A DNA stretch of 35,162 bases. It comes from an uncultured cyanobacterium. Lineage in GTDB: Bacteria; Cyanobacteriota; Cyanobacteriia; PCC-6307; Cyanobiaceae. A program made the position numbers and the translations under genes. Location: contig CAIJRN010000024.1 of assembly GCA_903823115.1 (NCBI GenBank), positions 1 to 35,162 on the forward strand, read 5' to 3'. Positions 608-19,352 of this stretch are shown here, in pieces (within the stretch, counting starts at the first letter, position 1; every line of letters starts with the position of its first letter). The notes beneath the pieces are model-generated. The model was given only the letters and a program-made list of their open reading frames with translations. It searched no databases and was not told the origin of the DNA.

Positions 608-790
608 TCAATCCTGCGCAACAACCTCCATCGCCACCACCCGCTGACCGCAAGCTTGCACAATCTTCCTCCTCCGCTCTCTGTTGATCCACGGCAGCTC
701 GCCAGCGAGAGTTCTCAGCCACAGCCATTTCTGCTCCCGCGCATGCAGCTCATCAAGCCAGACAGCCGTCTGGTCCCCCTTCCCCCTGGC
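608..790 (-). pseudogene. Tail of a second phage-type sigma-factor gene
   Basis: Read on the minus strand, 608 to about 770 encodes a C-terminus matching the sigma-like gene at 4207-4728. Both have ELHAR.QK, then a shared C-terminal block: here IVQACGQRVVAMEVVAQD, there IVVACSQRVVAMDVVEQE, each followed by TGA. Nucleotide identity is visible too, for example CCATCGCCACCACCCGCTGA at 629 and at 4227. Similarity continues past the stop codon to about 586, matching about 4184. The frame hits a stop just above about 790 and no start or region 2 remains, so only the last 45-50 codons survive. A five-residue gap and many substitutions separate the copies, so this is an old paralog or a remnant of a related element, not a recent duplication. 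Confidence 0.75.
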
Positions 791-1329: not shown

Positions 1330-1974
1330 ACAGGAAAGCGGTTTTGGCTGTGGCCGGTTCACCGGTTCACGCCAGATGATCCGGCCTGGCAGGCCGTAGG
1401 AGACGGGAAGCTCCCAGTTCAGGCAGTTGGCCCGGGGTACCAGTTGCAGCCGGGGGAGAGAAAGACGATCGCCGCTGCGTAGGGCCTCCTGGCGGTCGCC
1501 CTCGCTGGGCCAGCTGTGCTCGGGAGGCAGGACCAGCACCAAGGCTGCGCCGTCCCGCAGGACGAGCAGGTCTGCCGAGGCCAGGAACACCCCCAGGTCC
1601 GTACCGCGTCCGTCCACGTCGGTCAGCACCGACGCCAGGGTGGCTGGGAGGTTCAGCCAGCTGCCGCGGCTGAGCATCCCCGCGTAGGTGCGCAAGGCAT
1701 CGCGGAAAAAGCCCGAGGGCCGGGCAGCAGCCAGCCGGCGCTCGTAGGCCCCTTGGGGCTCCCGCTCCCCCTGGGGCAGGTAGACCTGCCGCCGGCTGCT
1801 GCCGTCAGTGTCGGAGAGCAGGTTCCAGCAGTCGGACGCGATCTGCAGGGAGGGTTGCAGAACTGTCAGGCTGGTGTGCTGGGTCCATGGGGAAGAGGGG
1901 GCTTGATACACGCGCAGCGGACCGGGCTGCTTGCTTTTGCCACCAGGGTTGTTCAAGCTTGTGTCGCAGAACAA
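1330..1974 (-). pseudogene. N-terminal fragment of a DUF4055-type phage portal protein
   Basis: About 215 residues read leftward from ATG 1974 resemble the N-terminal part of the DUF4055 portal family. The landmarks are VYLPQGEREPQGAYERRL (residues 64-81), RTYAGMLSRG (95-104), DVDGRGTDLGVFLASA (119-134), a hydrophobic GAALVLVLPP (142-151) and IIWREPVNRP (199-208). Portal proteins form the dodecameric vertex through which the terminase pumps DNA, and this family usually exceeds 400 residues. The frame happens to stay open into the antisense of ychJ down to 835, but portal-like sequence ends near residue 210, just before the ychJ stop codon. The remaining half and all downstream head genes are absent. 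It lies on the same strand and downstream of the terminase genes (4732-6959), the usual phage order. Confidence 0.65.
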
Positions 1975-2064: not shown

Positions 2065-2199
2065 TTGGCATGGCCGAAATGGTTCTCGGAAAGGAGTGGT
2101 AAGTGTTCCGTGTTTTCCAGAAGCATCGAAGGAAGAGTGAGGTTGTCAGTTTAGTTCCTGCCCTGGACATCTCTTGCACCCACGACGACGACACCGGTC

Positions 2200-2949
2200 A
2201 TGCCATTAAGCGCAAATTCGCTATTTCACTTCACCAAAGAAAAGGATTCTCTTTACGGAATCCTGAATGACACGTTTAGGCCTTCCTATTGCAGGGAGGA
2301 TTTGTCTATTGGTGGAAAGCAGTACTCAATAAGAGCTCCTATGGTGAGTTTCTGTGACATTCCATTATCGGAAATCAAGAGCCATATTGAAAAATACGGA
2401 TCGTACGGGATTGGCTTATCGAAGAAATGGGGTAAACGCAAAAACCTCAATCCTGTCCTTTATGTTGAGCAAGATTCGTTTCTCTCTCGAAGCTACGAAA
2501 GAGCACTCAGTCGCTTCGTCCTAGGGGAAGCACAAGCAAAGGAAGTAACCGATCCAGACAGTCTTGCAGTGCTCGATGTACTTAGATATATCAAGAACTA
2601 TGAGGGCAGTCTCACAAGAAGCAATGGAGAGCACGATCCTATGTACCGATTCTCTGACGAGCGAGAGTGGCGTTATGTGCCCGAAGTCAGCGCAGACTGT
2701 GACATGATTCTTGAAGATAGGCTCTTCCAAAAGGAGGAGATACGCGAGATGGCTATGGAGAAGATCTCTCGGTTGCGTCTAAGTTTTGCTGCGGACGACG
2801 TGCGCTACATTGTCATTGAGAAAGATAGTGAAATCAATGATCTCGTGGGATATCTCAGACAAATCAAGAACCGAAGGTACTCCCCGGAAGTGGTTGATCG
2901 CCTCACAACTCGGATTCTGACGCGTGCTCAGATTATGGAAGACATTTAG
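2200..2949 (+). CDS. AbiGi-family abortive-infection protein
   Basis: The 249-residue product begins MPLSANSLFHFTKEK and contains MVSFCDIPLSEIKSHIEKYG, YGIGLSKKWG and NPVLYVEQ, followed by a central FSDEREWRYVP motif and IVIEKDSEI near the C-terminus. This is the layout of the AbiGi family (putative abortive phage resistance protein, described as the antitoxin partner of AbiGii). The FTK, CDIP and EREWR elements are the strongest matches. No AbiGii nucleotidyltransferase-like toxin follows. The next gene is a nuclease-like protein about 235 bases downstream on the same strand. The gene is clearly more AT-rich than the flanking GC-rich phage genes and reads opposite to the terminase/portal module, which suggests later acquisition as anti-phage cargo. 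ATG at 2200 is used because it sets the family's usual N-terminus. Whether it acts alone or with the neighbour cannot be read from sequence. Confidence 0.82.
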   Translation: MPLSANSLFHFTKEKDSLYGILNDTFRPSYCREDLSIGGKQYSIRAPMVSFCDIPLSEIKSHIEKYGSYGIGLSKKWGKRKNLNPVLYVEQDSFLSRSYERALSRFVLGEAQAKEVTDPDSLAVLDVLRYIKNYEGSLTRSNGEHDPMYRFSDEREWRYVPEVSADCDMILEDRLFQKEEIREMAMEKISRLRLSFAADDVRYIVIEKDSEINDLVGYLRQIKNRRYSPEVVDRLTTRILTRAQIMEDI

Positions 2950-3012
2950 AAGTTATCTCACTGCAACCTAACATCAAGATACAGAAGACGGGCTCGAGGG
3001 CATCCGGCAATG

Positions 3013-3041
3013 TCAAGATCTCTGCCCACTTCTGATCTTGA
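3013..3041. repeat. 8-bp inverted repeat downstream of abiGi-like gene
   Basis: TCAAGATC at 3013-3020 and GATCTTGA at 3034-3041 are perfect complements separated by 13 bases. It lies 64 bases after the abiGi-like stop and about 140 bases before the next start. There is no T-tract, so it may be a weak transcript-end hairpin or an operator for the gene at 3185. Confidence 0.35.
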
Positions 3042-3184
3042 GCGTTAGCAGACTATTCTAGTATGGTTAGCACAACAAGCGTGCGAGTAGCCACTGCTAT
3101 GCTAAGCGAGCTGCTCGGCTGCCAGACTCTATGGGAATCGGTTTATAGTTGATTAGTCCATCAGTTTCATTCGAAATAAATGCA

Positions 3185-3748
3185 ATGGCAACACTAACGG
3201 TAGAGGAGATTAAATTCCTCGTCTCTCAAGACATAGCAGTTACTCAGGTCTTTGATGCATCGTCTTGCAAGAATACTGTGGATCGCGAATCTCAGATGAC
3301 AGATCTGGATATGTGGTTCTACTTCGGTGGTACAACATGTCGCAAAGCCGGCCATAGACTAAGGTCGAAGGCGAGTCACTGCATACAGTGTGACACCTCG
3401 AAAATTGCATTTACAAAACGATATTTCTCAGCGGGACATATTTACCTTGCGTACTCACGTGATCAAGTGCTAGCCAAGATTGGATTCACGAAAAATGATC
3501 CAAGCATAAGAGAAGGCACTCTCTGCAGGGACAGATATGCAAATGCCGTTGACTGGAGTATTGAGAGATCTGTTTTTCTTTCAAAGAATGCTGGACGAAC
3601 TGAGTTCGAGATTCACTCCCGCCTACGGAGATATTGCTCTCCGACATTGTTTGAAAGATTTCCCGGACTATTCGTTGAAGCAAGGGAAATATTCTCATGC
3701 TCGCTGGAAGTTGCATTGCAAGCATTTGACGAGTCCTTTGTCAGATAG
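3185..3748 (+). CDS. T5orf172/GIY-YIG-like nuclease with zinc-finger-like cluster
   Basis: The C-terminal half, about residues 89-187 from ATG 3185, fits the T5orf172 variant of the GIY-YIG fold. It has GHIYLAYSRDQVLAKIGFTK (the 'Y-Y...vKIG.T' strand-turn), a downstream arginine (CRDRYANA), a VDWSIERSVF strand, and a glutamate-histidine motif TEFEIHSRLRRY. Before it sits CRKAGHRLRSKASHCIQC, a likely zinc site (C...H...C..C). A metal-dependent endonuclease or DNA-binding role is the family expectation; no substrate is known. ATG 3185 was chosen over 3149 because the extra 12 residues look unstructured and the conserved-looking part starts later. Like its upstream neighbour it is AT-rich. The pair may be a defence cassette, or this may be an unrelated mobile-element nuclease. 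Confidence 0.65.
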   Translation: MATLTVEEIKFLVSQDIAVTQVFDASSCKNTVDRESQMTDLDMWFYFGGTTCRKAGHRLRSKASHCIQCDTSKIAFTKRYFSAGHIYLAYSRDQVLAKIGFTKNDPSIREGTLCRDRYANAVDWSIERSVFLSKNAGRTEFEIHSRLRRYCSPTLFERFPGLFVEAREIFSCSLEVALQAFDESFVR

Positions 3749-4206
3749 CAAGTAAATTGCAACACTCTTTGAGCGCCAGGGCGCCAGCGTTAGGGAGCCA
3801 TGATTTTTAAAGTATCATGATTAATGATATTTGCGCAAGCAAGATAATGCGGCATGAATCTATCAGCTTTCTGGCAGCAATTCAGAAGCATATATTCATC
3901 CAGTCCTTCTTGGCTCCGCGTTGCTCGAAACAGCCCTTGCGCCTCATTTCGTTTGTCGCAGTGATTGCAAATCCAAATTTGATCGGCTCTTGGTTGCCCA
4001 GCATAATCTCGCTAATTAATGCCTCAATAATCCATATTTAGGCGACAAGGGAGAGGTCGTCGGTACTGGCGAGTAAAATTGTCTCCGAGGCATGTTTCAA
4101 AATCGATGTAAAATCTAACATGGTAATTCACCTGAGCCGCCACAGATGAACTGTGCCATTCGAGTTGCTTTCGCTGCATCCTTCTGCGGCCTAGTAATGG
4201 CAAACG
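3749..4206. other. 458-bp AT-rich intergenic stretch, no convincing gene
   Basis: No reading frame here looks protein-like; the 74-codon frame at 3817-4041 has biased composition and no recognisable motif. A perfect inverted repeat CATGAT (3799-3804) / ATCATG (3814-3819) surrounds TTTTAAAGT and could be an operator or small hairpin. From about 4184 onward the sequence is homologous to 586-607, so the duplication of the sigma-gene tail includes some 3' flanking DNA. Confidence 0.5.
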
Positions 4207-4728
4207 TCACTCCTGCTCCACGACATCCATCGCCACCACCCGCTGACTACAAGCCACCACAATCTCCCTCCACCGCTCCGCATTAACCCCCAACCGCCCC
4301 GGCACCTCCGCCGCTGGCGTACCCAACCTGAGCAACTTCTGCCCCCGCGCATGCAGCTCACGCCAGGAGGCCGGCACCTTGATCAGAAAACCCTTATCCC
4401 GCAGGTAGTGATACACCTCGCCGTTGGCATAGGTGCGGGCAAAGGGTCGGAAGCAGCCCCGCTCAGGTGAGTAGCGGCGAGCGGCCTGCAGGATGCCGAG
4501 CATGGCGATCTGATGCAGATCCTCCCGTGGGTGTCCGGTGCGGCGAGCGATGTTGGCCGCCACCCGTTCGGCGATGTCCTGATGCTGCAGGGCCAGGGCA
4601 TTGGCGGCGGCATGGGGATTCACCGGCCGATGGCGCCGCGGGCGGGCCGGTGTGGCGACGGCGTGGGTCTGGGGCCGATGCGGCGTGGTGGCCTGCGGCT
4701 GCGGCTGCGGTTGGGGCTGCTGATCCAT
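4207..4728 (-). CDS. Short sigma-70 family factor in the terminase operon
   Basis: The 173-residue protein has a low-complexity Q/P-rich N-terminus (about residues 1-35). A sigma-70 region 2-like segment follows: HQDIAERVAANIARRTG, EDLHQIAMLGILQAARRY (polymerase-clamp-binding type helix) and FRPFARTYANGEVYHYLRD (promoter -10 recognition type), then IKVPASWRELHARGQKLL and a C-terminal helical block. Region 4 is missing or unrecognisable, so it is shorter than cyanobacterial group 2/3 sigma factors, although region 2 looks like theirs. It starts 3 bases after the large-terminase stop and so should share its transcript. Known phage logic suggests a late-gene switch, but that is inference. A decayed paralog of its last 45-50 codons lies at 608-790. 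ATG 4728 is the only reasonable start. Confidence 0.75.
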   Translation of the reverse strand: MDQQPQPQPQPQATTPHRPQTHAVATPARPRRHRPVNPHAAANALALQHQDIAERVAANIARRTGHPREDLHQIAMLGILQAARRYSPERGCFRPFARTYANGEVYHYLRDKGFLIKVPASWRELHARGQKLLRLGTPAAEVPGRLGVNAERWREIVVACSQRVVAMDVVEQE

Positions 4729-4731
4729 GGC

Positions 4732-6441
4732 CTACCGGGAGAACACCATTGGCAGCGGTGCCGAGCTGTGGCCCCGCCCGCGCCAGTACTGCGCCTCGAT
4801 CCACAGCACCCCCTGGGTGAAGGCATCCACCTGGTCGTCCACACCTCCGCGGGGTGAGAAGGCCAGCAGCTCCTCGATCAGCGAGTCGGACTTGCGAGAG
4901 AAGCGCACCTGGCCCGCCTCCACCAGCGGAGCGACGGCATGGCCCCTGGAGGCCTTGCTGCCCTTGGGCGTGATGGCGATCAACCCAGGCACCTGGCGCT
5001 TCAGCAGCTGGCAGACCGCCGGCCCATTGGCGGCGTCCTCGATCAGCACCGCATGGGGTCGGAGGCCCTGGCGTTCCAGCGAGGCAAGGGAGGCCAGTAG
5101 GAACTTGATCACCCCCGGCAGGTCCAGCCGCTGCCGGTGGGCCCAGAGCGCCTCGATCTGGAGCTCCGCCCAGGGGTCCTGAGCGCCAGCAGCCTCAGGG
5201 GTATGCGGCCCAGGTCGCTGAGCACCAGCAGCACTGGCCGCCAACGCCAGCCCCAGGCGCCGCGCCTCCATCGCCAGGTGGCGCTGGGGTTCCAGCAGGC
5301 CCAGCAACGCAAAACCACAGGCGTCGTTGTCCTTGCCGTCCTTGAAGCTCAGATCGCAGCTCAGCACCAGCGGGGCGTAGCGACGGGGCTGGCCCGGAGC
5401 TGTGGGCAGGGGGGCCTGAATCCAGGCCTTACGGAACAGCAGGCCCTCGGCCGGACTCGGCCGCTGCTGGTAGAGCGCATTCCACCAGTAGGAACCCAAT
5501 CGGGTACGGATCCGTTGCAGCACCGCCAGCGGCACCCGTTCGGGGCAGAGGGCCTCGCCGGGTTGACGCCAGTCCGGCACCCGCGTGCAGGTGGGTGGGA
5601 TCGGCATCGCGATGCTGATCGGCTCCGCAATGGCCGGCAGGTTGAGCACCGTCCAGTGCTCGGGGTGCTCTCCGCCCTCGGGCCCTTGGCCCTCCTGGGC
5701 CAGGAGCCAGGCGGTCATGTCCTGGTGGTCCCAGCGGGTCTGCACCACCACCTGCGCTGCCGGTAGCCACTGGCCGGTGCTGCTCTGGCCGGGCTCGGCG
5801 CGGGTGAACCAGACGCTCTTGAGCCAGTCGATCAGCCGCTCGCGTTGCAGCGAGCTTTTGGCGTCTTCCGGGCCCTTGTAGGGGTCGTCGATGATGCCGA
5901 GGTTGTAGCCCTTGCCTGTGAACGGCCCGCGCACGCCGGCAGCGATGCAACCGCCCCGTTGGGGCGTCAGCCAGTTAACGACAGCAGCCGAATCCTTGGA
6001 CAGAGCGTGTCCGGTGATCCGGTAGTAGTGGCGGGCTTCCCTTGAGTGGGCATAGGCCAGCTCGGCCGAGTACGAGGCGATCGCGCAGAACAGCTGCGGA
6101 TGGCGGCTCACCCAGTAGGCGGGAAACAGCCGTGAAACCAGAGCCGATTTTCCAGCTCTTGGTGGACAGCAGACGATCAGGCGCGTCAGCTCCCCATCGG
6201 CCACCTGCTGGAGCAGATCGATGAGCAGCTCCGAGAAGCGGCTGAACTGGAAGCTGGGGAAGGCGGCGAGGATGAAGTCCTTGAACAGCAGCCCTTGGCG
6301 CGTAGTTGTCGCCCGGTCTGGGTCGGGAACACCCAGCAGGCCCCAGTCGGCCCAGCGGTCTGTGGCTGGATCGAGCAGCAGGCCGCCCTGGTTGGAAAGC
6401 AGAGCAGCCGGTGGCTGCAGGGTGGAGGCGATGCGGCCCAT
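4732..6441 (-). CDS. terL: Phage terminase large subunit
   Basis: This is the 569-residue DNA-packaging motor. The N-terminal ATPase domain has a Walker A-like CCPPRAGKSALVSRLF (residues 91-106) and Walker B LGIIDDPYKG (181-190). The C-terminal nuclease domain has LSCDLSFKDGKDNDACG, HAVLIEDAANGPAV and GGVDDQVDAF, which place the acidic metal-binding residues of the RNase H-like fold in the expected order. The start at 6441 overlaps the small-terminase stop in a TGATG arrangement; the long open frame upstream of this start overlaps terS and is non-coding. TerL cuts concatemeric DNA and translocates it into the prohead through the portal. The portal gene downstream on this strand is truncated (1330-1974), so this TerL has no partner in the window. 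All key motifs look intact. Confidence 0.9.
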   Translation of the reverse strand: MGRIASTLQPPAALLSNQGGLLLDPATDRWADWGLLGVPDPDRATTTRQGLLFKDFILAAFPSFQFSRFSELLIDLLQQVADGELTRLIVCCPPRAGKSALVSRLFPAYWVSRHPQLFCAIASYSAELAYAHSREARHYYRITGHALSKDSAAVVNWLTPQRGGCIAAGVRGPFTGKGYNLGIIDDPYKGPEDAKSSLQRERLIDWLKSVWFTRAEPGQSSTGQWLPAAQVVVQTRWDHQDMTAWLLAQEGQGPEGGEHPEHWTVLNLPAIAEPISIAMPIPPTCTRVPDWRQPGEALCPERVPLAVLQRIRTRLGSYWWNALYQQRPSPAEGLLFRKAWIQAPLPTAPGQPRRYAPLVLSCDLSFKDGKDNDACGFALLGLLEPQRHLAMEARRLGLALAASAAGAQRPGPHTPEAAGAQDPWAELQIEALWAHRQRLDLPGVIKFLLASLASLERQGLRPHAVLIEDAANGPAVCQLLKRQVPGLIAITPKGSKASRGHAVAPLVEAGQVRFSRKSDSLIEELLAFSPRGGVDDQVDAFTQGVLWIEAQYWRGRGHSSAPLPMVFSR

Positions 6442-6959
6442 CAGGTTTTCGCTTCTGGTGGCTTGAGGGGGGCCCGCAGGATGCCGCCGATCTCGGCAAT
6501 CACCCGGAAGGCACCCACTGCCGCAGAGAACTGCTCGGCGTCCATCGCCCGACGGGCGCAGTCGTAGAGGGCATAGATGTGCTGGGCCTGATGTTCGAGG
6601 CGGTTGCTGATCAGGTCTTCCACCATCCGCTGGCGGGCGGCGTCCAGATAGGAGCGGACCGTGCGGGTGTTGGTGACCCCCCAGCTGGCTCCGGCGTTTT
6701 CGTAGATCCGCAGCAAGGGCATCCGCTGGGCGATCCACAGCTGCGCCTCGGCGATGCGCCGCTCCACCTCCATTGCCGTGGGCCTGGGCGCCACCTTGCC
6801 GCGACGGCGTAGGCGGGGTGGATTGCCCTTGCCGACGGGCCTGGTGGGATCGACGCCGGCCGAGGGGATGAAGGCCCGGCCATCGGCGTCCTGTTCCAGC
6901 GGGGCAGAGCGCAGGGCCTCGATGACCTCGTCGGCAGGTGGCGCTTGCTGGACAGCCAT
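6441..6959 (-). CDS. terS: Probable phage terminase small subunit
   Basis: The product of about 172 residues (ATG 6959) lies immediately upstream of and overlaps terL by one base. Features are a basic N-terminal third (RLRRRGKVAPRP), a helical segment ERRIAEAQLWIAQRMP, a helix-turn-helix-like GASWGVTNTRTVRSYLDAAR, and a C-terminal helical stretch including IYALYDCARRAMDAEQF and GAFRVIAEIGGILR. This matches small terminases that bind the packaging site through an N-terminal HTH and oligomerise through helices. Identification rests on position and fold-like pattern more than on strong motifs. The frame is open further upstream to 7187, but that extension is GC-biased and would run into the repeat region. 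The upstream repeats (7119-7416) are candidate binding sites for this protein. Confidence 0.7.
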   Translation of the reverse strand: MAVQQAPPADEVIEALRSAPLEQDADGRAFIPSAGVDPTRPVGKGNPPRLRRRGKVAPRPTAMEVERRIAEAQLWIAQRMPLLRIYENAGASWGVTNTRTVRSYLDAARQRMVEDLISNRLEHQAQHIYALYDCARRAMDAEQFSAAVGAFRVIAEIGGILRAPLKPPEAKT

Positions 6960-19089: not shown

Positions 19090-19161
19090 TGGGTCGCCTG
19101 AGATTCGAACTCAGGACCAATCGGTTAAAAGCCGAGTGCTCTACCGCTGAGCTAGCGACCC
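19090..19161 (-). tRNA. trnK: tRNA-Lys(UUU)
   Basis: The cloverleaf reads from 19161: acceptor GGGTCGC pairs with GCGACCC, D-arm TAGCTCAGCGGTAGAGCA, anticodon stem-loop with CTTTTAA (anticodon TTT), T-arm with GTTCGAATC, discriminator A. CCA is not encoded. Its 3' half faces the integrase and is the likely attachment site. Confidence 0.95.
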
Positions 19162-19280
19162 GCAACGTGCCCTTGTTCGGCACAGGTGGAACGTATCACA
19201 CGGGGATGGCGCCGTTCCGGGGATCCTTGGCATAACAAGAAAGTCCGCCAGGACAACGATGATGGCGGGGAAAATGACAG

Positions 19281-19352
19281 TGGGCCGCCTCGGATTCGAA
19301 CCGAGGACCGATCGGTTAAGAGCCGACTGCTCTACCGCTGAGCTAGCGACCC
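19281..19352 (-). tRNA. trnK: tRNA-Lys(CUU)
   Basis: The cloverleaf starts at 19352: acceptor GGGTCGC pairs with GCGGCCC (one G-U), the D-arm is the same as its neighbour's, the anticodon loop is CTCTTAA (anticodon CTT) and the T-arm contains GTTCGAATC. No CCA encoded. It lies 119 bp from tRNA-Lys(UUU) in the same orientation. The 5' half is nearly identical to that of the neighbour, while the T-arm stem and anticodon stem differ. Confidence 0.93.

Follow-up and report, generated by a model that had tools for sequence, protein, structure and literature searches.

The two genes at positions 2,200 to 3,748 of the window, that is, of the whole analysed stretch of 35,162 nt (contig CAIJRN010000024.1 of assembly GCA_903823115.1, from an uncultured member of the Cyanobiaceae; positions refer to the forward strand), are probably accessory cargo of a prophage. 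Specifically, an AbiGi-family gene and the T5orf172 gene that follows it appear to be independent integron-type cassettes residing in a variable slot of the prophage, with AbiGi acting alone as an enzyme resembling ADP-ribosyltransferases (ARTs). According to this model, the slot between a sigma-like gene and the portal gene would be stocked with integron-type cassettes, each made of a gene and its attC site, two of which would be AbiGi and T5orf172. AbiGi, for which modelling predicts a DarT-like fold and which carries His10, the invariant Tyr88, Glu154 and Glu156, would work alone as an ART-like enzyme and might modify a nucleic acid or a protein upon infection by another phage, so that the infection is aborted. 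In turn, the T5orf172 protein may be a GIY-YIG nuclease with a zinc finger and would cleave competing DNA.

A broader generalization can be put forward only tentatively. Prophages of one temperate cyanophage family might swap defence cassettes by means of an integron-type slot behind the sigma-like gene, one such cassette being a stand-alone DarT-like ART. This would be the solo AbiGi family, to which the name antitoxin would have been given wrongly, and its branch paired with AbiGii would have lost the histidine of the NAD+ site. If true, defence genes would be stored and exchanged in the form of integron-type cassettes by temperate phages too, and not by bacterial chromosomes alone; a family widely annotated as ‘antitoxin’ would consist of enzymes whose active site can be tested. 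Moreover, picocyanobacterial prophages could be mined for new defence genes simply by looking in the slot.

The two genes and the surrounding prophage

The first gene (2200..2949, plus strand) encodes a protein of 249 amino acids, whose assignment to the AbiGi family by profile comparison is firm: it matches PF10899 (5.6e-35, 121.5 bits against a cut-off of 22.4), the PADLOC AbiGi model (7.3e-51) and PHROG 13416 (1.7e-63), and falls short of the NCBIfam AbiGI equivalog NF042957 (66.7 against the 300 bits needed). After 235 bp follows a gene for a zinc-cluster T5orf172 (GIY-YIG) protein of 187 amino acids (3185..3748, plus strand), adequately assigned by its match to PF10544 (7.1e-7, 30.1 bits against a cut-off of 20). 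Its likely start is the ATG at 3185, which in the alignment agrees with the start in relatives, whereas the mechanically delimited open reading frame begins at 3149. The AbiGii profile lists no gene in the window. In other words, profile searches with both proteins bear out what a preliminary description of this DNA had read from its letters, namely an AbiGi without AbiGii and with a nuclease-family gene next to it. No PADLOC model matched the T5orf172 protein, a promoter and terminator scan of the window returned nothing useful, and the same holds for searches of the two proteins against phages and for single-protein scans of viral contigs.

The two genes stand out from their surroundings in base composition and orientation. 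Their GC contents are 0.455 (AbiGi) and 0.445 (T5orf172), with GC3 values of 0.49 and 0.43, respectively, against 0.68 and 0.70-0.85 for four neighbouring prophage genes; the stretch that they occupy has 46% GC inside a window of 65% GC. Moreover, both genes lie on the plus strand, antisense to the genes for the terminase large subunit, the sigma-like protein and the portal, all on the minus strand. The sharp compositional difference and the reading against the phage genes, both pointed out in the preliminary description, are confirmed, and the acquisition as cargo that it proposed is supported.

The terminase large subunit gene (terL, 4732..6492, minus strand; phrog_38, 1.8e-75) is followed by a sigma-70 region-2 gene (4207..4728, minus strand; PF04542, 1.3e-11), which forms one border of the slot. 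The other border is a truncated portal gene (1352..1974, minus strand), which matches phrog_145 over profile positions 12-129 of 493. Between them lies the AT-rich cargo insert (2142..4203), delimited by blastn of other prophage copies against the window and by the GC profile: homology to the other copies stops at or before 4204 and restarts between 2141 and 1794, the one exception within the insert being a hairpin common to some other cargos. Deeper in the prophage are genes for a primase, a helicase, exonuclease VIII, RecT and SSB. The best eight matches of the window terL among isolated phages are cyanophages (S-CRES1-3, S-CBS2 and PSS2) with 33-38% identity, and the order terS-terL-sigma recurs in S-CRES3, S-CBS2 and PSS2 (three records), where the next genes are on the same strand. 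The prophage can accordingly be placed, by inference, in a cyanosiphovirus-like family, with a picocyanobacterium as its probable host.

A few features of the prophage deserve mention in their own right. Homology to the other copies ends at 1352, in the middle of the portal gene, and a YchJ-like gene (841-1329) lies just past that point, so that the prophage seems to be cut there. Beyond the prophage genes, on the opposite side, two tRNA-Lys genes (19090-19352) mark a possible attachment region. In addition, 35-53 bp of the 3′ part of the sigma-like gene are repeated within or past the cargo with 87-98% identity, both in the window (627-679 and about 4226-4278) and in three further copies (L241, L247 and L253). 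Finally, about ten terL-family matches in a single genome (G422) suggest a prophage-rich lineage.

Variable cargo and attC-like hairpins

Relatives of terL were found in 26 of the 149 genomes searched, the genome of the window included, and several genomes hold multiple copies. Twenty stretches behind terL were fetched, 16 of which (from 12 genomes, one being that of the window) hold both terL and portal, while L242, L247, L248 and L254 miss one or the other. The copies are homologous to the window until the sigma-like gene ends, and the homology returns before the portal gene or within it; the terL-portal distance, sigma-like gene counted in, varies from 1.3 to 10.9 kb. The contents of the slot are unlike throughout: each of the 49 cargo open reading frames of at least 80 amino acids, those of the window included, matches only itself (blastp, E 1e-5). 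The cargo has a median GC of 0.50 and terL one of 0.689; antisense orientation is found in 30 of the 40 cargo frames of at least 100 amino acids. The genome of the window itself carries a further prophage copy (L253) with different cargo.

With 16 copies, no cargo protein in common and PADLOC matches at E ≤ 0.001 for five of ten cargo proteins taken from ten copies (the other five matching none), the slot corresponds to a defence hotspot. The matches are to PDC-S15, PDC-S13, an HNH restriction model, SAVED-HNH/PDC-M68A (in part) and PDC-S59; in a small control at the same threshold, none of six non-cargo proteins of the window matched. A wider PADLOC scan, covering 34 of 42 cargo open reading frames, added matches to dGTPase and DrmD, and Pfam searches on 34 of the 42 gave FRG, SLATT, CAP12-TIR, PIN and HNH domains besides IS, resolvase and capsid matches. 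Single copies depart from the common picture: one (L257) has no cargo frame of 100 amino acids, another (L243) contains an apparent IS21 element, and in a third (L258) the stretch measures 10.9 kb and includes an open reading frame that is resolvase-like.

The integron-type character of the slot is suggested by an attC-like hairpin (2968..3048, plus strand), which lies in cassette orientation about 20 bp past the stop codon of AbiGi and has similar sites in L244, L254, L256, L243 and L247. In the L244 cargo, 84 bp are similar to the DNA that separates AbiGi from T5orf172, which is how the element was recognized. The hairpin begins with CTAAC and ends with GCGTTAG; among the window, L244 and L254 the arms are identical, the middle is variable and the flanks are unrelated, and sites of the same build occur in L243, L247, L256 and elsewhere. 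Integron attC sites are imperfect hairpins whose ends read RYYYAAC and GTTRRRY and which contain unpaired spacers and additional bases. The hairpins described here have TAAC and GCGTT end boxes and long paired arms, and the fit of the end boxes to attC is partial, as ACCTAAC fits and GTTAGCA does not fully.

Nine sites were selected visually among the 26 arm hits listed, which include some duplicates, about 6 chance hits being expected in that arm search. When these nine are aligned, their pair cells are complementary in 89.8% of cases, a figure that falls to 35-41% with the partner slid. In eight of the pairs both bases are changed, as in compensatory substitution, and one base of the left arm is unpaired throughout. 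A scan with a fixed hairpin rule, written after the sites had been seen, returned five sites in the cargo (49.8 kb), a single one in the DNA outside it (164 kb) and 0.0 in shuffled cargo; outside this count, L254 has three further sites and L247 one. The window site lies 20 bp behind the stop of an antisense open reading frame; in L244 this distance is 12 bp, in L256 it is 5 bp and in L254 it is 12 and 44 bp, while in L247 the site overlaps the stop. Exceptions are L245, whose site is inside an open reading frame and in the opposite orientation, and L243, whose site is at the end of the sigma-like gene. A generic attC scan found no site in the cargo at a threshold of 13, below which its own known sites fell too, and at 9.5 gave five in cargo, two in flanks and 0.4 in shuffles. 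Most of the 17 cargos show no hairpin site in these scans, and none was found within 250 bp behind any of 136 other AbiGi genes. Nor did the hairpin scan find a site behind the T5orf172 gene of the window, where the AGCGTTAG at 3786-3793 may be half a site.

Since a hairpin separates the two genes and similar hairpins lie behind sibling antisense cargo genes, AbiGi and T5orf172 look like two cassettes; an attC-type build of the sites would account at once for the frequency of antisense genes and for the differences in content between the cargos. The likeness to integron cassettes, or to attC arrays without an integrase, consists in the unit of gene plus hairpin, the TAAC/GCGTT ends, the single orientation and the unrelated cargo. 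Unlike those arrays, the present sites are inside a prophage slot and few per cargo. Integron cassettes are reported to carry phage defence genes. On a separate contig (C38) of the same genome, L254 bears three hairpins, two of them behind antisense frames of 320 (12 bp) and 908 amino acids (44 bp), and it is the most promising candidate for a genuine cassette array.

The hairpins might instead be terminators, or a dispersed palindromic repeat specific to the genus, with the slot being filled by ordinary homologous recombination. Their position just behind stop codons and their occurrence in some cargos only agree with this explanation, which is nevertheless somewhat unlikely: the bases beyond the conserved ends differ, no T run follows the window site, and the fixed rule finds five sites in cargo against one in threefold more outside DNA. 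Furthermore, the end-box spacers and the single unpaired base of the left arm recur, and recurrent spacers and an unpaired base are features of attC sites. A different objection comes from the portal cut at 1352, which would suit a decaying prophage in which both genes are inert debris; that the two frames are open and have kept their conserved residues renders this very doubtful.

AbiGi without AbiGii and its possible enzymatic activity

The preliminary description had gone further, proposing that the two genes could form a system of their own, found elsewhere too, with the nuclease in the role of AbiGii; for this the neighbourhoods of AbiGi homologs give no support. The relatives considered were the best 80 of 372 in genomes (those closest to the window), 47 in viral contigs and those in plasmid records, giving 139 loci with an AbiGi open reading frame; as these include the window and two copies of it, 136 others remain, with flanks of up to 6 kb and often less. 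Apart from the gene of the window, neither the profile of the nuclease itself nor a profile built from 23 varied T5orf172 domains detected a T5orf172 gene at the 139 loci. The latter profile recovers the window gene at 8.9e-9 and was preferred, since a PF10544 search of the genomes missed the window gene itself. By that PF10544 search the domain occurs, at whatever position, in 26 of the 78 different genomes from which AbiGi loci come (L086 left out; L061 and L066 being one genome), and of 27 PF10544 loci fetched from them a single one (L145) has 43 bp in common with an AbiGi locus (L019). The sole frequent neighbour is instead AbiGii: in a clustering of 900 neighbour open reading frames it appears at 13 loci, the next-largest cluster having 6, and its profile finds it at 12. 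Pfam searches on the neighbours (108 of 121 downstream, 110 of 130 upstream) identify AbiGii in 8, and no other family among the first 25 exceeds 3.

The recurrent system was accordingly rejected. What speaks for a two-gene unit with the T5orf172 nuclease as a substitute for AbiGii is that the genes are adjacent, on one strand and of similar base composition, and that AbiGi does pair with AbiGii in one branch of its family. Such a unit is highly improbable, given the absence of T5orf172 genes from the flanks of the 136 other AbiGi genes, the absence of AbiGi from the stretches fetched around four nuclease relatives (L008, L143, L172 and L173) and the attC-like hairpin between the two genes.

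In a quick tree of 134 AbiGi sequences, from which L002, L031 and L052 were left out, the 13 AbiGii-paired members form one group (SH-aLRT 99), and the window AbiGi belongs to a group of 16 without AbiGii (SH-aLRT 95). The term solo denotes here that no AbiGii was seen, 15 of the 121 solo rows having less than 1.2 kb of downstream DNA. Judging from these sequences, absence of AbiGii is the normal condition in the branch of the window gene. The family is rare in the phylum, with three of 386 genomes, two above the cut-off, the genome of the window included. The first gene of lactococcal AbiG (AbiGi/AbiGii) belongs to the same Pfam and PADLOC family as the window AbiGi, which differs in having no AbiGii, in scoring below the NCBIfam AbiGI cut-off and in belonging to a separate branch that carries His10. 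As for the antitoxin role attributed to AbiGi in the preliminary description, the Pfam name does say so, but the label is weak: Dy 2014 (PMC3985639) reports a screen of lactococcal proteins in E. coli, AbiGi and AbiGii included, in which toxicity was seen for AbiEii alone, and the name AbiG is said to be given wrongly to many AbiE genes.

Other members of the family occur in diverse contexts. On E. coli plasmids, AbiGi genes without an annotated AbiGii adjoin avs4 (L005, L006 and L015), and phage-plasmid-like records of Klebsiella and E. coli carry AbiGi as well (L007, L009 and L111), in one case (L009) followed by a 403-aa protein that the AbiGii profile does not list. In three viral contigs (L106, L120 and L122) AbiGi is directly downstream of genes of one cluster, which probably encode repressors.

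The AlphaFold2 model of the window AbiGi (72 sequences) has a mean pLDDT of 93.9. Foldseek returned no significant match for it (E ≤ 0.001) in PDB and BFVD, and comparison with PDB sequences gave nothing useful. When Foldseek's candidates were re-aligned with VIA-align, rows 1-7 were DarT, with Z scores of 6.0-6.6 (a range that at 6.6 the tool calls common) over 131-143 residues; rows 8-29, down to Z 2.9, were Tpt1/KptA and other proteins classed as ARTs, some of which, such as TreX and AvrPphF ORF2, we take to be so; unrelated proteins appeared only at Z 2.5 or below. The first strand of the window AbiGi carries Phe-His-Phe-Thr. Similarly, H13 and T15 of DarT, described in PMC9967889 as contacting NAD+, sit in His-Ile-Thr.

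In the AbiGi alignment, His10 is found in 120 of 121 solo rows, the remaining one having a gap, and in none of the 13 AbiGii-paired rows; for Thr12 the figures are 115 of 121 and 2 of 13. As the difference in His10 follows one clade, it counts as one event. Tyr88, Glu154, Glu156, Trp157 and Arg158 are present in all 134 rows, and the matching of His10 and the glutamate to DarT residues is based on motif and order. The likeness to the DarT toxin of DarTG thus comprises the best structural alignments, a His-x-Thr on the first strand and a conserved late Glu. The differences are that no counterpart of DarT Arg51 was spotted by eye, that the DarT family PF14487 does not match the window AbiGi at E ≤ 1, and that no macrodomain or NADAR partner gene was found among eight window proteins scanned.

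Comparison of the AbiGi and DarT profiles is weak (E 0.019, probability 2.4%), a control comparison with the nuclease giving E 0.18 and 0.3%, while hhalign of AbiGi with DUF2971 gives E 3.6e-4 and 37%. This family of proteins of unknown function (PF11185) shares a Lys...Glu-x-Glu-x-Arg pattern with AbiGi proteins, 18 of 72 of which match it weakly in Pfam at E ≤ 1 (best 0.003), the window AbiGi itself not being among them. A full-text search, to whose scope subscription papers and preprints do not belong, found no literature linking AbiGi or AbiG to ADP-ribosylation.

Taken with the conserved residues, the structural model provides moderate evidence, not proof, that solo AbiGi is an ART-type enzyme. 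AbiGi proteins of the window's branch could otherwise be non-enzymatic, as an antitoxin or a regulator without its partner, in keeping with the Pfam name, the lack of a significant Foldseek match and the low DarT profile score; yet in solo proteins from many phyla His10, Tyr88, Glu154, Glu156, Trp157 and Arg158 are invariant or nearly so, and a non-enzymatic role is for this reason unlikely.

The T5orf172 protein and its relatives

Five aligned rows, the window protein included, share a Cys/His cluster and the T5orf172 domain, and the residues that a GIY-YIG enzyme should have (Tyr, Lys-x-Gly, Arg and Glu) are invariant in all five. Residues 81-187 of a poor model (pLDDT 46.8, two sequences) align best with Slx1 (Z 7.0) and less well with I-TevI and UvrC, and comparison of the family with PDB sequences gave nothing useful. 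The nuclease was found in one of 149 related genomes, that of the window itself. Among other genomes, a set of 398 gave four with a match and a set of 369 gave three; full-length matches came from two genomes, which are identical in the two sets.

According to Barth 2023 (PMC10448857), T5orf172 homing genes with zinc-finger domains are located near essential phage genes. With such nucleases, known from phages such as ICP1, the window protein has in common the domain, the Cys/His cluster and the proximity to terL; it differs in matching no zinc-finger Pfam domain, and homing is for it a candidate activity only. The T5orf172 gene might thus be selfish, in the manner of a homing endonuclease, and have inserted itself close to terL and portal, with AbiGi hitch-hiking. 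The Cys/His cluster and the precedent just cited would agree with this, as would the IS, integrase or recombinase gene that adjoins three of the four relatives (annotated in L008, recognized by eye in L172 and L173). Against it, no T5orf172 gene is present in the other 16 cargos, from which it follows that the slot does not depend on T5orf172, and a homing origin appears decidedly unlikely; independent cassettes are the preferred reading of the two genes.

Two further observations concern the T5orf172 family. In L172 and L173 the zinc-cluster relatives lie next to open reading frames that, by eye, are serine-recombinase-like. Moreover, on another contig (C40) of the genome of the window there is a second, different T5orf172 protein, of about 500 amino acids (L144).
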